A stretch of DNA of 36,095 bases from Gemmatimonadota bacterium (GTDB taxonomy: Bacteria > Gemmatimonadota > Gemmatimonadetes > Gemmatimonadales > Gemmatimonadaceae): the NCBI GenBank assembly GCA_016218305.1, contig JACREJ010000031.1, positions 1 to 36,095 of the forward strand. The letters are read 5' to 3'. The notes under the pieces were generated by a model that did not search any database, had not been told where the DNA came from, and was given only the letters and a program-made list of their open reading frames with translations. Of this stretch, positions 1 to 10,428 are shown piece after piece. Within the stretch, counting starts at the first letter, position 1. The number at the start of each line of letters is the position of its first letter. The position numbers and the translations under genes were made by a program.

Positions 1-189
1 AAGGCCGTAGAGGCGCTTCAACCCATTCATCACGCTCAGTTGCTGACGTACCTCCGGCTGGGCAACTACCCAATGGGGTTGTTGCTCAACTTCGGCCAAC
101 CGACCCTGAAAGCGGGGCTCCGCCGTTTCGTGAACTCGCCCCAGCGCGGTCTCTTCGCGCCCCTTCGCGCCCGTCGCCCTTCGCGGTAG
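1..189 (+). CDS. GxxExxY family protein, C-terminal fragment (5' end off window)
   Basis: Reading frame 1 is open from the first base to a TAG at 187-189 and gives 62 residues. The stretch KAVEALQPIHHAQLLTYLRL followed by GNYPMGLLLNFG matches the C-terminal half of GxxExxY proteins, a family of about 130 aa related to PD-(D/E)XK nucleases whose role is not established. The K at the first codon would belong to the family's E-x-K motif. The N-terminal part that carries the name-giving motif lies outside the window. The last 12 or so codons, from about residue 51, are made from a copy of the TTCGCG-rich intergenic repeat (153-187), so the tail SPQRGLFAPLRARRPSR is repeat-encoded and probably has no selected function. 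The gene ends 34 bp before the squalene synthase start. The family call is from memory of its conserved C-terminus and is fairly secure; the function is unknown. Confidence 0.75.
   Translation, partial: KAVEALQPIHHAQLLTYLRLGNYPMGLLLNFGQPTLKAGLRRFVNSPQRGLFAPLRARRPSR
153..187. repeat. Half-copy (right arm) of the TTCGCG intergenic palindrome, copy C
   Basis: These 35 bases differ from the right arm of copy B (8276-8310) at only two positions. They consist of back-to-back variants of TTCGCGCCC ending in TTCGCGGT. The matching left arm and the GGGGGAACT core are not present just upstream; that space is occupied by the GxxExxY coding sequence, which runs into the arm and stops at its end. The missing left arm may lie upstream of the gene, outside the window. 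Confidence 0.8.
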
Positions 190-223
190 CAGTAGCACCA
201 GCGTACCCCGTAGATTCTCGCAC

Positions 224-1279
224 ATGCCCACCGCCGACTCCCCCGCGCGCATCCGCGACGCCGAGCGCTTCGGCCGGGAGATCCTACCGGCGGTGTCGCG
301 CACCTTCGCACTGTCGGTGCAGCTGCTGCGCGGCGAACTGGGACGCTCGGTGCTCTGCGCCTACCTGCTCTGCCGCATCGCCGACACCATCGAAGATGAC
401 GGGCATGCAACCCCCGAGGACAAGGCGCGCCTGCTTGGCGAGTTCCTCGGTTGCCTCGACGACGCCTCCACCGCCGATGCCTTCCCCGCCCGCGCGGCCG
501 GCATCCAGGGCGACGCGGCGCACGTGCAGCTGCTGCGCCGCACCGACCTGGTCTGCGTGCTCTTTCGCTCGCTGCCGACCGGATCGCAGGACCGCGTGGC
601 CCACTGGGTCCGCGAGATGGCGCGCGGCATGGCCGAGTTCACCCTGCGGCACCCCAGCGGGCTCCGCATCCAGACCATCGAGGAGTATCGTGAGTACTGC
701 TACTACGTCGCCGGCACGGTGGGGTGCATGCTCACCGAGCTCTGGCGCGAGGACGGCCAGGTGCCGCCCGCGCGGTACGATGCGCTCTGGGCGCGCTGCA
801 CCAGCTTCGGCGAGGCACTCCAGACCGTGAATATCCTCAAGGACATCGCGACGGATGCGGAGCGCGAGAACGCGGTCTACGTGCCGGAGCGTACGCTGCA
901 GGCCCACGGCGGGTCGCACGCGACTCTGCTCGATCCGTCGCGCATCGCCGAAAACCGCGCCGCCGTCGGCGAGTTCATCGCGCTGGCCTGGACCGACCTC
1001 GACCAGGCCTTCGAGTACCTCCTGCTGCTGCCGCGCCGCGCCGTCTCCATCCGCGCGTTCTGCGTCCTTCCGCTGCTCTATGCGTACGCCACCCTGCGCG
1101 AGCTCACGCGCACCGACGCGATGCTGCGTCCCGGCGGCGCGGTGAAGATCTCGCGCGGCGAAGTGAAGTCTCTCATGGTCGCCGGCCTCGCGGCGCTCGG
1201 CAGCAATGCGCTCCTGCGCCGCCTCGTGGCGTCCGTGCGCGAGCGTCCGTTTGCACCGCTCGCCGGACTGGCGGGGTGA
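224..1279 (+). CDS. Squalene/phytoene synthase family protein (squalene synthase-like)
   Basis: Predicted to condense two prenyl diphosphates head to head, FPP to squalene or GGPP to phytoene, as a cytoplasmic or membrane-associated enzyme. The 351-aa length is usual for the family. Both Asp-rich Mg-diphosphate motifs are present: DTIEDD at residues 54-59, and NILKDIATD at 203-211 (N203, D207, D211). The surrounding residues resemble squalene synthases of the eukaryotic/FDFT1 type (DTLEDD and NIIRDYLED) more than bacterial phytoene synthases, so squalene is the likelier product. No other hopanoid, sterol or carotenoid gene is in view to decide this. The ATG at 224 has no clear Shine-Dalgarno sequence. 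The stop lies 4 bp before the proposed TTG start of the FAD oxidase, so the two are probably cotranscribed. A repeat half-copy lies just upstream. Confidence 0.85.
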   Translation: MPTADSPARIRDAERFGREILPAVSRTFALSVQLLRGELGRSVLCAYLLCRIADTIEDDGHATPEDKARLLGEFLGCLDDASTADAFPARAAGIQGDAAHVQLLRRTDLVCVLFRSLPTGSQDRVAHWVREMARGMAEFTLRHPSGLRIQTIEEYREYCYYVAGTVGCMLTELWREDGQVPPARYDALWARCTSFGEALQTVNILKDIATDAERENAVYVPERTLQAHGGSHATLLDPSRIAENRAAVGEFIALAWTDLDQAFEYLLLLPRRAVSIRAFCVLPLLYAYATLRELTRTDAMLRPGGAVKISRGEVKSLMVAGLAALGSNALLRRLVASVRERPFAPLAGLAG

Positions 1280-1283
1280 TGCA

Positions 1284-2936
1284 TTGACGACGAGCGCGGG
1301 GTGGGACGACGGGGTATTGCAGGCGCCGGACGGCTTCCGGGGCGTCTTCCGCACGGACGATCGCGCGCGCGCCGTCTATAGTGAGAGCGCGGGCATCGCG
1401 CGCATCCTCCCCGATGCCGTCGCTGTCCCAGCCGACGCTGAGGACGTGGTGACGCTCGTGCAGTGGGCCGCCGCACGGGCCGTGCCGATCGTTGCGCGCG
1501 GATCCGCGACGTCCATGGCCAATGGCGCGCTCGGGCGCGGCGTGGCGCTCGACCTCTCACGACTCAACTGGATCGCCGCGGTGGACGCGGCGAACGCGCG
1601 GGTGGCCTGCGGCCCCGGCGCCCTGCGCGACACCGTAGACGCGGCAGCCCGGGCGCACGGGCTGCGCGTCGCGGTGGACCCATCGTCGGGCGCGTTCTGC
1701 ACGATCGGCGGCATGGTGGCCACGAACGCCGCCGGGTCCCGCAGCGTGAAGCTGGGCGCGATGCGCCCCTGGGTGCACGGCCTCGACTGTGTGTTCGCCG
1801 ACGGCACGCGCGCCTGGGTGCGGCGCGGCGAGCCGCGTCCCCGCACCGAGGTGCTGCGCACGTTCCAGCATGATGTCGCGCGCGACCTGCACGACCGCGG
1901 CGCGACGTTGGCGCGCCCGGGCGTGCGCAAGGAATCGAGCGGCTACGCGCTCGCCGACTACGCCCGCAGCGAAGACCTCGTGGACCTGCTCGTGGGGAGC
2001 GAGGGCACGCTGGTCATCTTCGTCGGCATCGAACTGGACCTCGCACCGGTGCCGCCGGCGCGCAACGCGGTGTTGGCTTCCTTCCTTTCGCTTGAGGAGG
2101 CCGTGCTGGCCGCCGGGCGCGCCACGGCGCTCGGCGCGAGCGCGGTGGAGCTGCTCGACCGCACCTTCCTCGACGTGGTGCGCGCCGAGGCGTCGGCACT
2201 GTCGATTCCGTCCGGCGCGGACGCGGTGCTGCTGATCGAGGCGGAAGGGGAAACGGCGGCCGACGCTGACACGCTCACGCTGCGACTGGCCGACGCCTGC
2301 CACCACGCGCGGGCCGCGCACGTCGTGGCGGCCCCGGACGAGCAGACGGCAACGCGCATCTGGCGCATCCGTCATGCGGCGAGTCCCATCCTCAACGCGC
2401 TCGATCCCAACCTCGCATCCATGCAGCTGATCGAGGACGGCGCCGTGCCGCCGGAGAGCTTCCCCGACTACGTGCGCGGCGTGCGCGCCGCGCTCGAGCG
2501 GCACGGGATTCGCGGCGTGATCTTCGGACACGCCGGCGACGCCCACGCGCACGTGAATGCGATGGTGGATGTGCGGCACCCCGACTGGCGCTCGCGCGCC
2601 CGCGCCCTGATGGATGACGTGACGGGGCTCGTGGCGCTGCTCGGCGGCACGCTCGCTGCCGAGCACGGCGACGGCCGGCTTCGCACGCCGCTGATGTTCC
2701 GCGTGTGGGACGCGCGCGCCATGGCGCTGTTCGCGCGCGTCAAGCAGGCCTTCGACCCGCTGGGCGTGCTGAATCCGGGCGTGAAGGTGCCGCGCGCCGG
2801 CGACGATCCATTGGCGTCCGTGAAGTACGATCCGACGCTGCCACCGCTGCCGGCGGACGCGCGAGCGGTGCTCGACCGCATTGTCCGCGAGCGTGACTGG
2901 GCGGCGTACAGGCTGGGCGAGCTGCCAGACGTCTGA
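1284..2936 (+). CDS. FAD-binding oxidase, GlcD / D-lactate dehydrogenase type
   Basis: A flavoprotein of the vanillyl-alcohol oxidase/PCMH fold that oxidises a 2-hydroxy acid such as glycolate or D-lactate. The N-terminal FAD_binding_4 domain covers about residues 30-215, with the PIVARGSATSMANGA diphosphate-binding stretch, the GGMVATNAAGSRSVKLG segment and a VGSEGTL segment. The FAD-oxidase C domain follows, with the family signature FGHAGDAHAHVN and AAEHGDGR near the C-terminus. No C-terminal 4Fe-4S/CCG domain is present, unlike some relatives. The frame is open back to an ATG at 1206, but that start would overlap squalene synthase by 74 nt. A TTG at 1284, preceded by GGCGGGG, leaves a 4-nt gap and about 550 aa, so I prefer it. 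The substrate cannot be read from sequence. Functional linkage to squalene synthesis is not evident beyond cotranscription. Confidence 0.8.
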   Translation: MTTSAGWDDGVLQAPDGFRGVFRTDDRARAVYSESAGIARILPDAVAVPADAEDVVTLVQWAAARAVPIVARGSATSMANGALGRGVALDLSRLNWIAAVDAANARVACGPGALRDTVDAAARAHGLRVAVDPSSGAFCTIGGMVATNAAGSRSVKLGAMRPWVHGLDCVFADGTRAWVRRGEPRPRTEVLRTFQHDVARDLHDRGATLARPGVRKESSGYALADYARSEDLVDLLVGSEGTLVIFVGIELDLAPVPPARNAVLASFLSLEEAVLAAGRATALGASAVELLDRTFLDVVRAEASALSIPSGADAVLLIEAEGETAADADTLTLRLADACHHARAAHVVAAPDEQTATRIWRIRHAASPILNALDPNLASMQLIEDGAVPPESFPDYVRGVRAALERHGIRGVIFGHAGDAHAHVNAMVDVRHPDWRSRARALMDDVTGLVALLGGTLAAEHGDGRLRTPLMFRVWDARAMALFARVKQAFDPLGVLNPGVKVPRAGDDPLASVKYDPTLPPLPADARAVLDRIVRERDWAAYRLGELPDV

Positions 2937-2940
2937 GCGA

Positions 2941-3069
2941 ACTGATACCGCGAAGGACGAAGGGCGCGAAGGACCGCGAAGGACGACAACAGCGTGGGGG
3001 AACTGCGGTGTCCACGCAGTTCCCCCGGTCGTTTCTTCGCGCCTCTTCGCGCCCTTCGTCCTTCGCGGT
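2941..3069. repeat. Intergenic palindromic element, copy A (129 bp)
   Basis: A large imperfect hairpin fills the gap between the FAD oxidase and thyX. The outer arms 2947-2971 and 3045-3069 are 25-bp perfect inverted repeats built from GAAGG/GCGCGAAGG units. The inner arms 2996-3007 (GGGGGAACTGCG) and 3015-3026 are 12-bp perfect inverted repeats around a 7-nt loop. The left end begins ACTGATACC, which is shared with copy B and has no counterpart on the right end. No open frame inside looks coding; the shadow translations are Arg/Glu/Ala-rich. Confidence 0.9.
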
Positions 3070-3151
3070 GGAAGTCCACGTGAGACTAGCCCTCACGCTT
3101 GGACATCACCCGCAATAAATTCCCCGTTCGCCACCCCTCACCACGCCTCCG

Positions 3152-3907
3152 ATGCCGCATTTCTACACCGAGCCCAGGGTCACCGTCCTCGCGCGTCCCG
3201 CCTTTGCCGAGCCTGCGCACCTGCCGGTGGCGTGGCAGGGGGAGAGCACCGACGGTGAGCGGCTCGCGGAGTTCGCCGGCCGGCTCTGCTACATGAGCCA
3301 GAAGAACCCGGCGAGCCGGACGACGCGCGACTATCTGGAGAACATCAAGAAACAGGGGCACGGGTCGGTGCTCGAGCACGCCAACTATTCGCTGCTGCTC
3401 GAGGGGATCAGCCGCTCGCTGACGCACGAACTGGTGCGCCACCGCGCCGGGTTCGCCTACTCGCAGCTGTCGCAGCGCTACGTGGACGAGAGCGACGCAA
3501 ACTTCGTCGTGCCGCCGGCGATCATCGGCGACGACGCGCTCGTGGCGCAGTGGAAGGCGCAGGTGGAAGCCGCACAGGCCACGTACGTGGCGCTGGTCGA
3601 GAAGCTCATGGAGCGCTACGCCTGGGTCGCCGACAAGGTGCACCGCCGCAAGATGGCGCGTGAGGCGGCGCGCGGCGTGCTGCCGAATTCCACGGAGACG
3701 AAGATCGTGGTCACGGCCAACGCCCGCGCGTGGCGCACGATGCTCGAGCTGCGCACTGGCGAGGGAGCCGAACAGGAGATTCGCCGGCTGGCCGTGCTGG
3801 TGCTGCGCACGCTCCAGGCCGAGGCGCCGGGGTTCTTCGCGGACTTCGAGGTGTACACGGCCGAAGACCGCGTCGAGTCGGCGCGGATCTCGTACCACAA
3901 GGTCTGA
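3152..3907 (+). CDS. thyX: FAD-dependent thymidylate synthase ThyX
   Basis: Makes dTMP from dUMP using methylene-tetrahydrofolate, with FAD and NAD(P)H as reductant; the active form is a homotetramer in the cytoplasm. The 251-aa length is normal. The signature region reads THELVRHRAGFAYSQLSQRY, with R96-H97-R98 and S107. The family motif is RHRX7S, whereas here eight residues separate RHR from the S of the SQRY segment, a one-residue insertion relative to the M. tuberculosis-type RHRHFSYSQLSQRY. Upstream HGSVLEHANYSLLL and downstream REAARGVLPNSTETKIVVTANAR are typical of the family. The ATG at 3152 has no clear Shine-Dalgarno. The gene stands between palindrome copy A and the large regulator. 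No thyA is in view. Confidence 0.93.
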   Translation: MPHFYTEPRVTVLARPAFAEPAHLPVAWQGESTDGERLAEFAGRLCYMSQKNPASRTTRDYLENIKKQGHGSVLEHANYSLLLEGISRSLTHELVRHRAGFAYSQLSQRYVDESDANFVVPPAIIGDDALVAQWKAQVEAAQATYVALVEKLMERYAWVADKVHRRKMAREAARGVLPNSTETKIVVTANARAWRTMLELRTGEGAEQEIRRLAVLVLRTLQAEAPGFFADFEVYTAEDRVESARISYHKV

Positions 3908-4025
3908 TCGGCGTCGGCCCCCCCGACGCCGCCCACCTCCGTCGCCGCGGCGGGGCAAGGCCGGCCACGTCGGCGCGCGACGCCCTCGTCCTCTGCGCGC
4001 CGTGCCTCCCCCAGCGCGCGACGCC

Positions 4026-4073
4026 TGAAGTGCGTAACATAGAGTGACATCGCAGACGCCTTTGACGCACTTC
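4026..4073. promoter_or_regulatory. Inverted repeat upstream of the BTAD regulator, possible operator
   Basis: GAAGTGCGT at 4027-4035 and ACGCACTTC at 4065-4073 form 9-bp perfect inverted arms 29 bp apart. They lie about 100 bp before the start of the 1331-aa regulator, inside a 264-bp gene-free stretch. A TTGACG at 4062-4067 overlaps the right arm and could be a -35 box, but no good -10 follows at 16-18 bp. An operator, perhaps autoregulatory, is a guess from position alone. Confidence 0.3.
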
Positions 4074-4171
4074 TGACGACACCGTCGGAACGTCGCCGCC
4101 GGATTGCATTTCCTGCGCAGGTCATCTGCGGTGCTGCTCGTACCTTCGCGCACCTTCCGGTTCCGCACGGC

Positions 4172-7100
4172 ATGCAGCTCACGCTCAGTACGCTCGGCAC
4201 GCTACAGGCGTCGACCACCGACGCGCAGGGCACCACGCGCACGCTGTCCCGGGGCAAGCCCGTGGCGATGCTGGCGTACCTGGCGTGCATTCCGGGGCAC
4301 AAGGCGAGCCGAGAGCACCTGTCCGCCCTGCTCTGGGGCGACGTCGACAGCGACGCCGCCCGGCAGAACCTGCGGCAGACCGTCTGGTACCTGAAGAAGA
4401 AGCTCGGGGATGGGTTGCTCGAGGTGAGCGGGGAGGTGCTGGGACTCGCGGCCACCTTTACTTGCGATCGCGACGAGTTTCTCGCCGCGGCCCATCATGC
4501 CGACTTCGTCGGCGCCGTGCAGCGTCATGCGGGCCCGTTCATCCCCGACTTCGCCGCCCCGGGCGCGTCGGAGTTCGAACAGTGGTGTGAGCTCGAGCGC
4601 CGGCGCGTGACCGTTACGTTCTTGCGCTGCGCGGATGCGCTCGCGCGGCAGTGGCTCAGCGAGGGGAAGTTCCGCGACGCGCAGGAACTCGCCCGGCGCG
4701 CGCGCGACGTCGACCCGATGGACCAGGCGACCTGGCGCCTGCTGCTCGAGGCACTCATCGCGGGAAGCGACGGGCTCGGCGCGGCCAGCGAGGCCGAGCA
4801 TTTCGAGGCCTTCCTCGCGCGCGAGGAGCAGGAGCCAGACTCCGCGTCAGTGGCGGTGATGCGCGCCGCGCGGCGCTCCCCCGTTGCCCCGGCGCCCGAT
4901 GCCACCGGGTACGCATCGTCGATTGCCGCCGAACTGGTGGGACGCGAAGCTGAGTTCAGCCATGTGCTCTCGGCGTGGGAGCAGGCGCGCAACGGAACGC
5001 CGCGCGTGATTTTGGTCGCGGCGGCCGCTGGCCTCGGCAAGAGCCGCCTCTTGCGCGACGTGCGGGCGCGGCTCCGCGGCTCGCGTTCCCGTTGCATCCT
5101 GGTGCGGGCCAACCCGGGTGACCGGCATCTCACCGACGGGTTCCTCGCCGAAGTCGCGTCGCAACTGGCGACGCTCAGCGGCGCGGCCGCGGTGTCTACC
5201 GGGTCGGCGGGCGTGCTGGTGGCGCTGGCACCGGCGCTGGCCTCTCTCTACGCGTCAGCGACCCCGGACAACTCCGAAGGAGAGGAAGCGGTGCGGCGGC
5301 GTGCGCTGGCCATGGTGGACCTCATTCACGCGGTCAGCGAGGAGCATGCGGTGGCGCTGCTGCTCGACGACCTGCACTGGGCCGACGACCATTCGGCGCG
5401 GGTGATCGCGGCGGCACTCTCCCGGCTGGAGCACGCACGGCTGATGGTCGTGATGACCAAGCGTCCCGTGCCCGACCCGCGCGCGCTCTTTTCGACCTTC
5501 GAACGGCTCGAGCTCCCGCCGCTCGACCTGGCGGCGGTGCATGCGTTCGTCTCCCACGCCGCGGAACTACCGTCGGCCCCGTGGGCGGACATCCTGCCGC
5601 AGCAGTTGCTGCTCGCCACGGGCGGGTCACCGCTGTTGCTGGTCGAGACGCTGCACGACGCACTGGAACAGGGGTGGCTGTCGTGCTCGGCCGTCGGTGT
5701 CTGGCAGTGCCCCGACCCATCGCGCGTCACGGCATCGCTGCGAGAAGGGAGCGCGGTGCGTCAGCGCGTCCTGCGCCTGTCGCCCCCGGCGCGCCAGGCG
5801 CTGCTCGTCCTCGCAGTGGTGGGGCGGCCGATTGAGGTGGACGACCTGTCGGCGATGGTCGGCGCGGAGCCGCGCGTGCTCGAAGAGCAGCTCGAGCTGC
5901 TCGAACGCGGCGGGTTCCTCACGCGGAATGCAACGCAACTGGTGGTGGCGCACGACGAGATCGCGGACGCGGTGATTGCCGCGTCCCTGGAGGACCAGCG
6001 GCGGACGGCGCATGCGAGCATCGCCCGCACGCTGCTGTCACGGGCGGACGACGAGTACGCCCTGCGGCGAGCGGCGGAGCATGCCGTTGCCGCGGGCGAG
6101 GACACGCTGCTGGCGATGGCGTGGCGGCGTTTCCTCGGACTTCGCCGGCGCGCGCGCGACCGGCGCGCGACGCGCAGCATTGCCGTGGATTTCCTCGGAC
6201 TCGACGCCGCTTCGCCCAAGGTGCAGCAGTTGGTGGCGGCGACGCCGCTGTGGAAGCGGAAACGGGCGCGTTGGCTGACGGCTGCCGCGGCCGTGCTGGT
6301 CACGGCGTCGGCGTCCGTTGCCACGTTGGCGCGCCGTCCGGCCCCGCCGCTGACCTCCGACTTCACCTTTCTGACGGTCGACAGCGCGACGGGCGAACAC
6401 CGGTACGTTGGCGTACGCATCCGCCCCGACGAACCGTGGGAAGCGGGCGTGCCGCTCGAGGCCACGGAGCTCGACTCCACGGCGTATCCGAAACGCCCGC
6501 CCGGGGCAAATGCGCTCCTGCAACGCGGGCCTGACGGAAAGCGCTGGTGGACTATGGTGACGGGGAGGGAGAACGGCGACGAGGTGGTTTGGATCGATTC
6601 GCTCGGCCGCATGCAGTTCCCCATGCCGAGTGCCGGCGACGATGTCGTCGAGAGCGTCTCTCCCGATGGTCGGCTCCTGCTCGCCTCGACCGGTCGGTTC
6701 GACACGATCACCGACCACCTGCAACAGGTCATCGTCGATCCGGAGCGTCGGACCGTGCGGCGTCTCACGAATTCGACGGAGGGGGATCGCGAAGGACGGT
6801 GGAGACCGGACGGCACTCAGATTGCATTCAGGCGGCACCATTTCTCCGTGGTGAGCAGCGACAGTCTATGCCTGGTGGACTTCGACGGAGGCAACGAGCG
6901 CTGCCTGCCGACCGAGGTTTCCGATCGCTGGGGCCTGATCGGTTGGCTGGACGAAGACCGCCTTCTGGTCAACGCATCCGACGGTCGTGTGTTCGGCGTG
7001 GACGCACGGAGCGGCGAGGCACGGCAGCTGACCGAGATGCGCGGGGCGTACTCGACATTCAACGGCTCGTTGCTGCTCTGCCGATGCGGCACGGCAGCAG

Positions 7101-8167
7101 ATGCGAACCGCCTGTTCTACCTCGCGCCGACGTCCAACCCAGCGGCGGCGCGCCCGGTCCTTTACGAGGGCCGCCCGCTCGTGGGATACGGAATTGTCGC
7201 CGCGCCGCGCTACCCGGAGCGCCAGTGGCTCGCCACCCTGCGCCTCGTGCTTCCGACGGGTGGACTGTCGGTAGAGCACGCGCATCAACTGCGCGCCGAT
7301 GGGCGTCGCGCGAACGGGGCGCCCGCGCCGTTGCATGATCTGCGCTGGACGTCGCGTGATACCACGGTGGCCACCGTGGACTCGCTTGGCCGCTTTCGCC
7401 CACGCCGTCTCGGCGCCACGTGGATTGTGGTCTCGGCTGGCGGCTGGCGTGTCGATTCGGCGCTGGCGCGTGTGACGCCCGCGACGTCCCACACGCTGGT
7501 GCGCGAGTTCTGGGACACGTCGTGGGTGACGCGTTGGCGCGCGTTTGGCGAGCCACGCCCGCGCCTCGTGGAGACGGCCATCGGACCCGCCTTCCTGCCG
7601 AATGGGGACGGCTCGTACCCGTCCGGGGCGTATCTGCCGCTGGTGATTCCGAGCGTCTCGGGCGCCGGCGTGGAAGCGGTGGTGAGCATGCCAATCACCC
7701 GTTCGCAGTGGCAGACCCTCAGTGTCTCACTCATGCCGGCGCGAGCGCTCCAGGGGCTGCGACGGTGGGACCACGTCACTGGCGACGCAGTGATGCCAGA
7801 CGGCTACGTCTGCTGGGCCGTCTTCCCGGGAGGTGAAGGGGGGCGGGCGATTGAAACGGCGGCGTACGGCGGCCGCCAGAACGACGAGACGTACTTCGTG
7901 CCACCCGGGCTGTACAATGGTCGCTGGCATCGCGTTCGGCTGCAGCTGCTCCCCGACGGCCGCTGCGCCCTCGCCATTGACGGCCGTCCCATCGGCGCGC
8001 GGCGCGGACGAACTCCGCCTCCTGCTTCGGGCGTTTTCGTGCACGTCATCGGCAACTCGCGATTCAATGGGCGCCTCGTGGTGGGTCCGCTCGAGGCGTG
8101 GACCGGCGTCCGCGGCGGCGTGGACTGGACGCTCGTGGATGACGATTCAATGACCAGGAAACCGTAG
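4172..8167 (+). CDS. Membrane-anchored BTAD/SARP-type regulator with AAA ATPase and large extracytoplasmic region
   Basis: A 1331-aa multidomain protein. Residues 1-95 look like the OmpR-type winged helix of SARP regulators, with the typical RQNLRQTVWYLKKKLG segment. Residues about 100-235 are a bacterial transcriptional activation domain (GASEFEQWCELERRR near 132, then TPR-like helices). Residues about 250-560 are an AAA/STAND-like ATPase: ELVGREAEF, Walker A AAAGLGKS (K290), Walker B LLLDDLHWAD (D399-D400). A single membrane segment at about 701-720 follows KRKRAR, so the N-terminal part should be cytoplasmic. Residues about 725-1035 resemble a TolB/PD40 beta-propeller (RWRPDGTQIAF near 875). 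Residues about 1040-1100 resemble a BIG2 Ig-like domain (WTSRDTTVATVDSLG), and about 1105-1318 look like a concanavalin/LamG-type sandwich. This implies ToxR/CadC-like one-component transmembrane signalling. DNA targets and ligand are unknown. The LamG and propeller calls are weaker than the rest. Confidence 0.8.
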   Translation: MQLTLSTLGTLQASTTDAQGTTRTLSRGKPVAMLAYLACIPGHKASREHLSALLWGDVDSDAARQNLRQTVWYLKKKLGDGLLEVSGEVLGLAATFTCDRDEFLAAAHHADFVGAVQRHAGPFIPDFAAPGASEFEQWCELERRRVTVTFLRCADALARQWLSEGKFRDAQELARRARDVDPMDQATWRLLLEALIAGSDGLGAASEAEHFEAFLAREEQEPDSASVAVMRAARRSPVAPAPDATGYASSIAAELVGREAEFSHVLSAWEQARNGTPRVILVAAAAGLGKSRLLRDVRARLRGSRSRCILVRANPGDRHLTDGFLAEVASQLATLSGAAAVSTGSAGVLVALAPALASLYASATPDNSEGEEAVRRRALAMVDLIHAVSEEHAVALLLDDLHWADDHSARVIAAALSRLEHARLMVVMTKRPVPDPRALFSTFERLELPPLDLAAVHAFVSHAAELPSAPWADILPQQLLLATGGSPLLLVETLHDALEQGWLSCSAVGVWQCPDPSRVTASLREGSAVRQRVLRLSPPARQALLVLAVVGRPIEVDDLSAMVGAEPRVLEEQLELLERGGFLTRNATQLVVAHDEIADAVIAASLEDQRRTAHASIARTLLSRADDEYALRRAAEHAVAAGEDTLLAMAWRRFLGLRRRARDRRATRSIAVDFLGLDAASPKVQQLVAATPLWKRKRARWLTAAAAVLVTASASVATLARRPAPPLTSDFTFLTVDSATGEHRYVGVRIRPDEPWEAGVPLEATELDSTAYPKRPPGANALLQRGPDGKRWWTMVTGRENGDEVVWIDSLGRMQFPMPSAGDDVVESVSPDGRLLLASTGRFDTITDHLQQVIVDPERRTVRRLTNSTEGDREGRWRPDGTQIAFRRHHFSVVSSDSLCLVDFDGGNERCLPTEVSDRWGLIGWLDEDRLLVNASDGRVFGVDARSGEARQLTEMRGAYSTFNGSLLLCRCGTAADANRLFYLAPTSNPAAARPVLYEGRPLVGYGIVAAPRYPERQWLATLRLVLPTGGLSVEHAHQLRADGRRANGAPAPLHDLRWTSRDTTVATVDSLGRFRPRRLGATWIVVSAGGWRVDSALARVTPATSHTLVREFWDTSWVTRWRAFGEPRPRLVETAIGPAFLPNGDGSYPSGAYLPLVIPSVSGAGVEAVVSMPITRSQWQTLSVSLMPARALQGLRRWDHVTGDAVMPDGYVCWAVFPGGEGGRAIETAAYGGRQNDETYFVPPGLYNGRWHRVRLQLLPDGRCALAIDGRPIGARRGRTPPPASGVFVHVIGNSRFNGRLVVGPLEAWTGVRGGVDWTLVDDDSMTRKP

Positions 8168-8186
8168 CCGCGCGGACGCGAACAGC

Positions 8187-8310
8187 ACTGATACCTCGAA
8201 GGCCGAAGGGCGCGAAGGACCGCGAAGAGACAATCGGGGGGAACTGCATCGTCTCGCAGTTCCCCCCAGTCGTTTCTTCGCGCCCCTTCGCGCCCTTCGA
8301 CCTTCGCGGT
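8187..8310. repeat. Intergenic palindromic element, copy B (124 bp)
   Basis: A second full copy of the element at 2941-3069, between the convergent ends of the regulator gene and the EF-G gene. The outer arms 8193-8218 and 8285-8310 pair over 26 bp with two mismatches. The inner arms 8236-8247 (GGGGGGAACTGC) and 8256-8267 pair perfectly around an 8-nt loop. It starts with the same ACTGATACC as copy A. The transcript would be a long stable hairpin and could end or protect both flanking mRNAs, but there is no U-tract. Confidence 0.9.
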
Positions 8311-8322
8311 TGAAGGTGGAGG

Positions 8323-10428
8323 TTACTCCTCCGCCTCCTCCTTCTTCTCCTTCTCCGCCTCCGCGATCACCTTGGCCGCCGCCTCGTGCGGCATCAGCTC
8401 ATAGGCGTGGAACCGGTGCTGGAACGTGCCGCGTCCCTGCGTCATGGACTGGAGCTTCGTCGCATAGAGGTACAGCTCCGCCTGCGGCACGATCGCCTTC
8501 ACCTTGGTCCCCAGCCCCTCAATGTTCTCGGACCCGAGGATCTGCCCGCGACGGCCGGAGATGTCACCCATCACGTCGCCGAGATAGGCGTCCGGAGTCA
8601 GGATCTCGACCTCGTGCAGCGGCTCGAGCAGCACCGGGCGGCACTTGGGCGCGATGTTCTTGAAGGCGAGGATGCCCGCCATCTTGAAGGAGGCTTCATT
8701 TGAATCCACCGAGTGCGAGGATCCGTCGAAGCACTCGCAGATGAAGTCCACGACCGGGTAGCCGGCGAGAATGCCGCGCTCCGAGGCTTCCTGCACGCCC
8801 TTGTCCACCGCGGGGATGTACTGGCGCGGGATCACGCCGCCCTTGATGGCATCGATGTACTGGTAGCCGGTGCCGCGCGGAGCCGGGCGCAGCTTCACCC
8901 AGCAGTCGCCGAACTGTCCGCGGCCGCCCGACTGCTTCTTGTGGCGTCCCTGCCCCTCGGCCGCCGCCGTCAGCGTCTCGCGATACGCAATGCGCGGCGT
9001 CTTCAGCTCTGCCGAGACGTTGAGCAGGCGCTTGAGCTTGGCCATCGCCACTTCGACGTGCCGCTCGCCCATGCCGCTGAGGATGGTCTCGTGCGTCTCC
9101 GAGTCGTAGTGCGTCTCGAACGTCGGGTCCTCGTCGTGGATCCGGTGCATCCCAACCTGCAGCTTCTCCTCGTCGGCATGCACCGTGGCGCGCACAGCGT
9201 ACGTCACCAGCGGCGGCGGGAACTCGATCTGCGGCATGCGGACCGGGTGTTCCTTCGTCGAGAGCGTGTCGTTGGTGTGCGTGTTCTTCAGCTTCGCCAC
9301 GCAACCGATGTCGCCGGGGAAGAGCCGCGGCACCTCGATGCGCTCGCGCCCCTGCGGGATCGACAGGTGCATGAGCTTCTCGGACACGTCGCGCGTGGCA
9401 TTGAAGACTTCCTGCCCGTTGGCCACCGTGCCGCTGAACGTGCGGAAATACGTCACCTCGCCCACGTGGGGCTCGGCCATCGTCTTGAAGCAGAGCGCGG
9501 TGAACGGCGCGTCGTCGTTGGGATGGATGTCGACCGTCTTGGCCCCTTCGGCGCCCTTGAACGCCTTCTGCTCCTCCATCTCGTACGCGGAGGGCATGAG
9601 CTGCACGAGGAAGTCGAGCACCGTGCGCACGCCCCACGTGAGCTGGGCCGAGCAGCAGAGGAGCGGGAAGAGCTCCTGGCGCTTCATGGCCTGCTTCATG
9701 GCGGCCATCTCCTCGTCGCCCGGGATCTCCTCGCCGCTGAAGAAGCGCTCGAGGAGCGCATCGTCGGTGGCGGCGATGGCCTCGACCATCTCCTGATGGT
9801 ACTTCTCGAAGCGGGCCCGCTCCGACTCGGGGATGTCCGTCTCGGTGTACTCGCCCGTCTTGGTGCCGGGGGCGAAGAGGTGCGCCTTCTTGGTGAAGAG
9901 GTTGATGATCCCCTTGAAGCCGAGGCCGGCGCCGATGGGGATTTCCACCGGGACGACCTTCGTCGTGAGGCGCTCCTTGATGGCCTCGTACGCCGCGTCG
10001 AAGTTGGCGTGCTCCTTGTCCATCAGCGTCACGGCAAAGAGCACCGGGTCGCGGCGGGTGATGGCCTCGCGGAACATGCGCTCGGTGCCGACCTCCACGC
10101 CGGCCGCGGCGGCCACCGTGATGAGCGCGCCGTCGGCGGCGGTAAGGCCGGCAATCGCGTCGCCCTGGAAGTCGAGGAACCCGGGCGTGTCGATCATGTT
10201 GATCTTGGTGTCACGCCACTCGGCGAATGCGCAGCCCATGGAGATGGAAAAACCGCGTTCGACTTCCTCTGGAGAGGTGACCGTCAACGCGGTTCCGTCC
10301 TTCACCTGGCCATGTCGCTTGCTGCTGCCGGACACGAAGGCGAGGGCATCTACCAGAGTAGTCTTGCCACTCGTCCCGTGTCCCACTACAGCGACATTTC
10401 TGATTGCCTCACTCCGGTACTCTTTCAT
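8323..10428 (-). CDS. Elongation factor G-like translational GTPase (EF-G paralogue)
   Basis: A 701-aa protein with the full EF-G architecture: GTPase domain (about 1-275), domain II, domain III, domain IV (RHKKQSGGRGQFGDCWVKL) and a domain V ending in an Ala/Glu/Lys-rich tail. G1 is GHGTSGKT (residues 16-23), switch I carries ERGFSI instead of the ERGITI of canonical EF-G, and G3 is DTPG (80-83). The G4 guanine-specificity motif NKxD is replaced by TLMD (134-137). These features place it with EF-G paralogues (EF-G2/FusA2-like) rather than the main fusA; it is not next to rpsL, rpsG or tuf, as fusA usually is. The ATG at 10428 is preceded by GGAGG with 5-nt spacing. The precise role, whether translocation, recycling or stress, cannot be told from sequence. 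Confidence 0.85.
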   Translation of the reverse strand: MKEYRSEAIRNVAVVGHGTSGKTTLVDALAFVSGSSKRHGQVKDGTALTVTSPEEVERGFSISMGCAFAEWRDTKINMIDTPGFLDFQGDAIAGLTAADGALITVAAAAGVEVGTERMFREAITRRDPVLFAVTLMDKEHANFDAAYEAIKERLTTKVVPVEIPIGAGLGFKGIINLFTKKAHLFAPGTKTGEYTETDIPESERARFEKYHQEMVEAIAATDDALLERFFSGEEIPGDEEMAAMKQAMKRQELFPLLCCSAQLTWGVRTVLDFLVQLMPSAYEMEEQKAFKGAEGAKTVDIHPNDDAPFTALCFKTMAEPHVGEVTYFRTFSGTVANGQEVFNATRDVSEKLMHLSIPQGRERIEVPRLFPGDIGCVAKLKNTHTNDTLSTKEHPVRMPQIEFPPPLVTYAVRATVHADEEKLQVGMHRIHDEDPTFETHYDSETHETILSGMGERHVEVAMAKLKRLLNVSAELKTPRIAYRETLTAAAEGQGRHKKQSGGRGQFGDCWVKLRPAPRGTGYQYIDAIKGGVIPRQYIPAVDKGVQEASERGILAGYPVVDFICECFDGSSHSVDSNEASFKMAGILAFKNIAPKCRPVLLEPLHEVEILTPDAYLGDVMGDISGRRGQILGSENIEGLGTKVKAIVPQAELYLYATKLQSMTQGRGTFQHRFHAYELMPHEAAAKVIAEAEKEKKEEAEE

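Follow-up and report, generated by a model that had tools for sequence, protein, structure and literature searches.

Periodic inverted repeats accompany genes of the predicted nuclease GxxExxY and suggest a gene-and-repeat partnership

Why should one arm of a dispersed palindrome form the last codons of a gene? The question is raised by contig JACREJ010000031.1 of a Gemmatimonadota bacterium (assembly GCA_016218305.1), a stretch of 36,095 nucleotides (nt) that we call the window and that is contig C96 among the 116 contigs of this 2.0-Mb assembly. It begins inside a gene of the GxxExxY family, and the end of that gene resembles an arm of two palindromes lying further downstream, A and B. A sequence-only reading had proposed that left arm, GxxExxY gene and right arm make up one unit. 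We find that such arms bracket GxxExxY genes across many phyla and are dispersed without the gene, which suggests that gene and repeat are partners in a way not described so far. The features of the window that are needed here are the following, with a strand assigned to the gene only:

1-189, plus strand: 3' end of the GxxExxY (PF13366/TIGR04256) gene; the 5' part lies on contig C11, with an exact overlap of 141 nt
153-187: right arm of the GxxExxY element, coding for the last codons; arm likeness extends to about 193
2941-2981: left arm of element A, with the ACTGATACC end and periodic CGAAGG units
2996-3026: core hairpin of element A, GGGGGAACTGC/GCAGTTCCCCC, terminator-like
3035-3069: right arm of element A; the whole element is absent from the same junction in six relatives
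8187-8227: left arm of element B
8236-8267: core hairpin of element B; a similar arm-free hairpin stands at the B junction of G003 and G009
8276-8310: right arm of element B, adjoining the convergent gene 8323-10428

Both palindromes, with their common arms and GGGGGAACTGC hairpin core, lie at the positions first given for them (A, 2941-3069; B, 8187-8310). Copy A pairs two 35-nt arms (2947-2981 and 3035-3069, 91% complementary) with the core hairpin in between, and copy B two 55-nt arms (8193-8247 and 8256-8310, 85% complementary) around a loop of 8 nt; when folded as single-stranded DNA, A reached a z value of -12.0 and B one of -11.3, and none of 200 shuffles equalled either. By eye, 33 of the 35 bases of the half-copy at 153-187 do agree with the right arm of B (8276-8310), and the half-copy supplies the final codons of the gene as had been proposed, the TAG stop at 187-189 beginning at the last base of the arm. 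The similarity is not due to chance, since the arm pattern has 39 matches with up to three mismatches in the 2.0-Mb genome and the reversed pattern has none.

The gene itself could be followed across the end of the contig. Residues 1-44 of the open reading frame (ORF) that ends in the window match TIGR04256 (GxxExxY; E 2.4e-11, 44 bits against a cut-off of 35), and the two parts of the gene match PF13366 with 126.7 and 44.4 bits (cut-off 22). The last 141 nt of contig C11 are identical to the first 141 nt of the window, which probably reflects a typical k-mer assembly break, and the join is supported because the left-hand gene of C11 adjoins the right-hand synthase gene of the window in nine genus mates. 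A left arm is present at C11:13198-13232, immediately upstream of the GxxExxY domain; the unit is therefore left arm, GxxExxY gene, right arm, and the central proposal of the sequence-only reading holds. A further arrangement occurs at G000:C42:9629-9852 and G000:C8:76257-76487, where a palindrome of the GAT type, CCGCGGATCACGCGGATG, lies between AAG-type arms; its family resembles that of the palindrome upstream of a second GxxExxY gene at C87.

Inverted arms also flank other GxxExxY genes of the phylum. PF13366 was present in 27 of the 60 genomes searched (the source genome and 59 relatives), and for 70 GxxExxY copies, two of them at contig ends, the left 350 bp were compared with the reverse complement of the right 350 bp. 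Among the 68 testable loci, 28 scored above the 99th percentile of 651 mixed-genome pairs; in direct orientation 16 did so, an excess expected for complete palindromes on both sides of a gene, where the expectation concerns the loci as a set and not as individually checked cases. The five copies in Gemmatirosa (G025) have five distinct arm families, and four of them (L073, L112, L127 and L129) show, by eye, a complete palindrome on either side of the gene. Broken GxxExxY genes, with a frameshift or internal deletion, were seen to keep their palindromes or arms at L127 and L129 in Gemmatirosa and at L131 in G059.

A profile built from ten Gemmatimonadota proteins was used for one scan, and of its 570 loci the best 80 were taken; they span many phyla, two archaeal records among them, and 77 were testable (L163, L176 and L196 were set aside). 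A flank inverted-repeat score of at least 40 was reached by 40 of the 77, against 0 of 468 control ORFs of the same loci and 11 of 603 mixed pairs; the direct orientation reached it at 14 of 77. The arms are repeats of a 7-bp unit, CRCNRAK, the first often reading ACCRC, with spacers mostly of 1-3 nt (0 nt once, 1 nt 67 times, 2 nt 145, 3 nt 39, 4 nt 14). Two or more inward units stand on both sides of 56 of the 77 genes and of 3 of 465 control ORFs, so that the predicted enrichment of arms around other GxxExxY genes was borne out. Taken by side, inward units occur at 66 (left) and 59 (right) of 77 loci and at 17 and 16 of 465 control ORFs, outward units at 13 and 18 of 77 and at 23 and 17 of 465; as the unit was derived from these same loci, the motif count is descriptive, and the alignment test is independent of it. 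The same arms are recognizable by eye in AT-rich flanks of the cross-phylum loci. Within the 80 loci, which had been chosen for GxxExxY, 123 inward-facing arm pairs were found, 63 of them short palindromes with gaps below 250 bp, 49 enclosing GxxExxY and 11 others. Of the 4 variable letters of a unit, 3.35 are shared between neighbours in the same arm but 2.34 between units of different loci, so that the units look homogenised.

The arms are also found far from the gene. A gene-less unit consists of arm, short hairpin and arm, measures roughly 70-230 bp and is intergenic, and at more than 1,500 bp from a GxxExxY gene 63 three-unit arms were counted in 886 kb, compared with 3 in the reversed sequence. 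Such families are largely private to a genome: the arm core of the source genome, with at most one mismatch, has 25 matches there, 10 in G010, 4 in G007, 2 in G001 and none in the other 56 of the 60 genomes, and the arm of one Gemmatirosa copy (18 bases, at most one mismatch) has 320 matches in Gemmatirosa (reversed control 0), one in each of seven other genomes and none in the remainder. These are matches and not elements, given that one arm can match twice and one palindrome has two arms. When 20 Gemmatirosa sites were examined, 18 had facing arms 39-162 nt apart (measured between pattern ends) and two had arms on a single strand only; at four sites (L344, L348, L350 and L359) a different element is nested, by eye, in the loop. 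Around 24 elements of the source genome, gene context as judged from codon-position GC content (weak for five of the 24) is convergent for 12, codirectional for 12 and divergent for none.

A generic three-unit pattern, counted net of its reversed control in 298 Gemmatimonadota genomes (96 with PF13366), links dispersal to the gene at the level of genomes: PF13366 is present in 21 of the 25 genomes with at least 10 net matches (Fisher p 3e-8), in 14 of the 15 with at least 20, and in all 11 with at least 40. The pattern was also counted in 40 diverse GxxExxY genomes, those that carry 40 of the 80 loci, and gave 928 matches against 11 in the control, with any match in 33 genomes and at least 10 in 21. 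One Gemmatimonadota genome, G278, stands apart with 26 generic matches, of which three pairs have a spacing of 134-137 bp; the genome is 95% complete and lacks a PF13366 match. Its gene could have been lost or lie on a missing contig, or its repeats could have a different partner.

What kind of protein lies between the arms is indicated by conserved residues and predicted structure. All 22 aligned domains match PF13366, with weak extra matches (E up to 0.1) to Cas4 (PF01930) in six and to four other families in one each; no transposase family appeared among these weak extra matches, a result that concerns the bracketed genes, RAYT/Y1 genes elsewhere in the genomes not having been searched for. 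Eight residues are invariant in the 22 sequences (G20, E23, Y26, D63, E73, K75, Q87 and Y91); they include the GxxExxY motif and the D-ExK-QxxxY signature that marks the RecB/Cas4 group of nucleases. A confident AlphaFold model (pLDDT 96.2, pTM 0.87) had no Foldseek match reaching E 0.001, the best being 4ic1, SSO0001 (2.2e-3), which we take to be a Cas4, followed by lambda exonuclease. A second structural comparison again placed 4ic1 at the top (Z 9.7, root-mean-square deviation 3.2, 96 residues), ahead of BpuSI (7.5) and of Hjc, AddAB and the Cas4 Pcal_0546 (6.4-6.6), and a sequence-profile search of the PDB found nothing at E<=1. On the model, then, GxxExxY is predicted to be a compact PD-(D/E)XK nuclease of Cas4/lambda-exonuclease/RecB type with a domain of about 117 amino acids, in keeping with the nuclease-fold relationship first suggested for it. 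The nuclease seems to be kept, as D63, E73, K75 and Q87 are all intact in 203 of 211 stop-free copies. Two other settings for the gene were considered and rejected: a defence system, PADLOC on two proteins having given a weak Cas4 match in one only, and ordinary plasmid or phage cargo, one GxxExxY query (E<=1e-5) having matched 4 plasmid records among 72,556 and no phage record among 50,697.

Arm sequence goes with GxxExxY protein subfamily, and it does so across phyla. When the 40 diverse genomes, all known to hold one copy, were searched by BLAST with a second-type protein, each had between 1 and 15 matches; the 70 copies read from these overlap in part with the genes of the 80 loci. By eye, and with exceptions, the units of GPGLLES proteins end in AG, those of GFLEKVYEN and GFLEAVYQ proteins are mostly CACAGAT, CACGGAT or CACGAAT, those of GFLESVYEKS proteins are ACAGGAT or ACAAGAT, and those of GNGFQEV proteins belong to other, GATT-type arms. 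For a formal test, 220 loci yielded 209 that were testable, 208 without a duplicate and 127 with a flank score of at least 33 and short arms; removal of 11 further duplicates left 116 loci from 73 genomes, with phyla assigned from record titles. Over 5,790 between-phylum pairs, similarity of arm 4-mers tracks protein identity (partial rho on GC 0.33), a value matched by none of 500 free and none of 500 within-phylum permutations. In a two-by-two comparison, GLLE proteins had AG arms 64 times and AT arms 8 times and GF.E proteins 7 and 20 times, with 17 others or undecided (p 3e-9; 2e-10 without Gemmatimonadota). Both types were determined in nine genomes; six conform to this rule throughout and G062 is mixed.

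Presence/absence polymorphism, which the sequence-only reading had asked for between strains, exists between species at conserved junctions. At the GxxExxY site, two of the nine relatives, G007 and G010, carry inward arms around an orthologous gene, six (G001, G002, G003, G004, G005 and G009) have neither gene nor palindrome, and G006 has a gene-less GAT-type palindrome instead; the empty site of G004, and perhaps that of G001, retains letters that by eye resemble the outer end of an arm. Element A is absent from all six relatives in which both neighbours could be aligned (G002, G003, G006, G007, G009 and G010). At the B junction, arms are present in none of eight relatives, and most have a bare hairpin, with nearly the same core (by eye) in G003 and G009. 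Because relatives carry such hairpins, B need not be a simple insertion: it may be a set of arms around an older terminator, or the hairpins may be remnants of elements.

Fourteen further elements of the source genome gave 20 comparisons, 13 with G006 and 7 with G009. Six of them show a clean empty site, where no more than 27 nt remain; they concern five elements (C86:53849, C7:7590, C81:2104 in both relatives, C92:12028 and C98:4929). Four sites in G006 have other arm families around a hairpin (GGTAGATG twice, an 11-bp AACAGAGAGAC repeat, and the GAT type), and of the further G006 sites one has a GTCTGCC-type repeat, three have shortened remnants and two align over their whole length at 76%. 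In G009, the four sites that are not empty have 53-110 nt, one with short AAG-type arms. The GGTAGATG and 11-bp AACAGAGAGAC families stand at L325, L329 and L332 of G006, the orthologues of the C92, C7:14078 and C75 sites.

Some further observations concern the palindrome cores and their surroundings. The GGGGGAACTGC core (2996-3026 and 8236-8267) recurs at elements L015 and L059 of the source genome and, free of arms, at the B junction in G003 and G009; a second terminator-like core, GCGCGCCACGC, occurs at L035, L038 and L047 and arm-free at the B junction in G002. The two may represent a separate dispersed terminator family. A large ORF at 4172-8167 (1331 amino acids), downstream of thyX, has a weak TOMM kinase/cyclase match; it also follows thyX in some genus mates, with no match there in G001, G003, G006 and G009. 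The thyX label is search-based, and the labels ‘synthase’, ‘oxidase’ and ‘elongation-factor-like’ come from a reading of the sequence by eye.

We consider it rather probable that GxxExxY genes and periodic inverted arms constitute one system, one that resembles the REPIN/RAYT systems, in which repetitive extragenic palindromes (REPs) occur as hairpin-forming doublets (REPINs) alongside REP-associated tyrosine transposases (RAYTs), but is built on an unrelated nuclease. In such a system GxxExxY would recognise the 7-bp units of its own subfamily, about one per helical turn, in the duplex or in an extruded hairpin, and would nick or trim the arms, after which the palindrome would be copied to new intergenic sites in the manner proposed for RAYTs and REPINs; alternatively, binding and trimming could maintain the palindromes rather than spread them. 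The bracketing, the dispersal, the protein-arm code, the presence or absence between species and the retained active site are observed; that the protein binds, cuts and disperses the palindromes is our inference. Gene-less copies may derive from gene-bearing ones, and the units may move by classical transposition.

Several results weigh against this interpretation. Two-sided CRCNRAK arms are missing from 21 of the 77 cross-phylum loci, among which inverted repeats of other units were seen by eye at L170, L183, L190, L209, L210 and L217. Fewer than 20 net generic matches occur in 82 of the 96 PF13366 genomes and none at all in 7 of the 40 diverse GxxExxY genomes; conversely, G028, G151, G225 and G278 reach at least 10 without a PF13366 match, and the other periodic arm families of G006 have no assigned GxxExxY. 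The AG/AT rule is broken by G065 and G077, and the correlation of protein with arm within genomes is borderline (81 pairs, rho 0.30, null mean 0.16, equalled in 103 of 2000 shuffles). Finally, the sequence-only reading had asked for empty sites with target duplications; the empty sites were found, but no target-site duplication was seen by eye at the compared sites, whose flanks diverge by about 10% or more.

These results have to be set against other explanations. The gene could be a homing-type parasite, the palindromes being spread by another agent while the nuclease would cut those that are intact and copy its own gene into the middle of them. This would account for the frequent position of the gene between two halves of a palindrome, of which the gene-less palindrome would be the uninterrupted form, for the intact nuclease residues and for elements nested in the loops of others in Gemmatirosa; an independent palindrome, however, should not be found nearly always in GxxExxY-positive genomes (14 of 15 at 20 or more net matches), and some genes lie between two complete palindromes and not inside one, so that we regard homing as unlikely. 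We think equally little of the scenario in which the hairpins are useful to the host as terminators, mRNA 3' ends or nucleoid sites, GxxExxY being a stabilising resolvase or processing nuclease and mobility incidental. The cores do look like terminators, 12 of the 24 elements are convergent and none divergent, relatives have bare hairpins at the B junction, and Hjc-type resolvases are among the structural matches, yet entire elements including the core are absent from conserved junctions in close relatives, and arm families vary by genome.

A still smaller chance attaches to hitch-hiking, in which an ordinary tyrosine transposase of REPs or of terminal inverted repeats (TIRs), encoded elsewhere, mobilises the palindromes. 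In other taxa REP and TIR repeats do flank RAYT genes and their TIR-associated counterparts (TIRYTs), according to the excerpts of PMC3733652; here, no other gene class recurs between arms in the 80 loci (the 11 other pairs not being annotated singly), and arm sequence tracks GxxExxY subfamily across phyla. Compositional artefact, or chance likeness of GC-rich repeats, comes to mind as the units are short and degenerate, and is refuted almost beyond doubt by reversed-pattern and ORF controls near zero and by the presence, by eye, of the same arms in AT-rich flanks.

If the proposed system is real, it would account for many of the periodic repeats that so far stand unexplained between bacterial and archaeal genes, and it would offer a natural code of protein/DNA recognition, readable from many genomes. 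The records examined assign no function to the GxxExxY family, and its tie to widespread orphan repeats would give both a testable role. There is also a warning for annotation: some GxxExxY proteins, the one in the window included, end in translated arm DNA, and such arm repeats occur in databases as odd translated protein tails. We know of no PD-(D/E)XK protein in REP-like dispersal.

No link between GxxExxY and repeats was found in searches of one open-access library, including those on REP-like nucleases, or in excerpts on Cas4 phylogenomics (PMC5704561); where excerpts name GxxExxY, repeats are not the topic, and in one case such a domain was met where a different program had assigned cas4. 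Six repeat words searched for as printed had one bacterial occurrence in the open-access literature, in a polymerase chain reaction primer, and for Gemmatimonas repeats only unrelated items were among the matches listed. The multicopy intergenic sequences of Geobacter (PMC2700814, PMC2996986) are likewise palindromic and direct-repeat families in many copies, but are not linked to a GxxExxY gene in the described text.

Among known systems, Cas4, lambda exonuclease and RecB share the fold and the D-ExK-QxxxY residues, whereas the GxxExxY domain, at its small size, is partnered by a dispersed palindrome and not by CRISPR or a helicase. The sequence-only reading had drawn an analogy both with miniature inverted-repeat transposable elements (MITEs) and with REPs and RAYTs. 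As with MITEs, gene-less units share their ends with a gene-bearing unit and are present or absent between species, but there is no DDE transposase and no target-site duplication was seen at the compared sites. TIRtrons, in the excerpts of PMC3733652, also have a gene between inverted repeats and dispersed families, yet the gene encodes an HUH tyrosine transposase and the TIRs contain GGGGWSAS motifs. The REP/RAYT half of the analogy fits. The arms form many dispersed, genome-specific inverted doublets in intergenic DNA, as REPs and REPINs do, and the ‘REPtrons’ described in the excerpts of PMC3116915 and PMC3733652 are similar in that genome-specific, multicopy intergenic palindromes flank a nuclease gene, elements are nested, and 3' ends and convergent junctions are favoured. 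GxxExxY further resembles RAYT/REPIN systems in being rare on plasmids and phages, in the site of the source genome's copy being shared by three species, and in its intergenic 3' placement. The RAYT of those excerpts is an HUH tyrosine transposase acting on GTAG-tagged REPs, in contrast to a predicted PD-(D/E)XK protein with CRCNRAK arms, of which GTAG/CGTC tags are, by eye, not a defining feature. The GxxExxY system is thus not a REPtron, because it differs in the defining enzyme and tags, though it would work like one; that, next to insertion sequences with their MITEs and REPs with their RAYTs, it forms a third and domain-wide class of systems that disperse prokaryotic repeats, with a subfamily-specific 7-bp hairpin code, seems to us an evenly balanced proposition.

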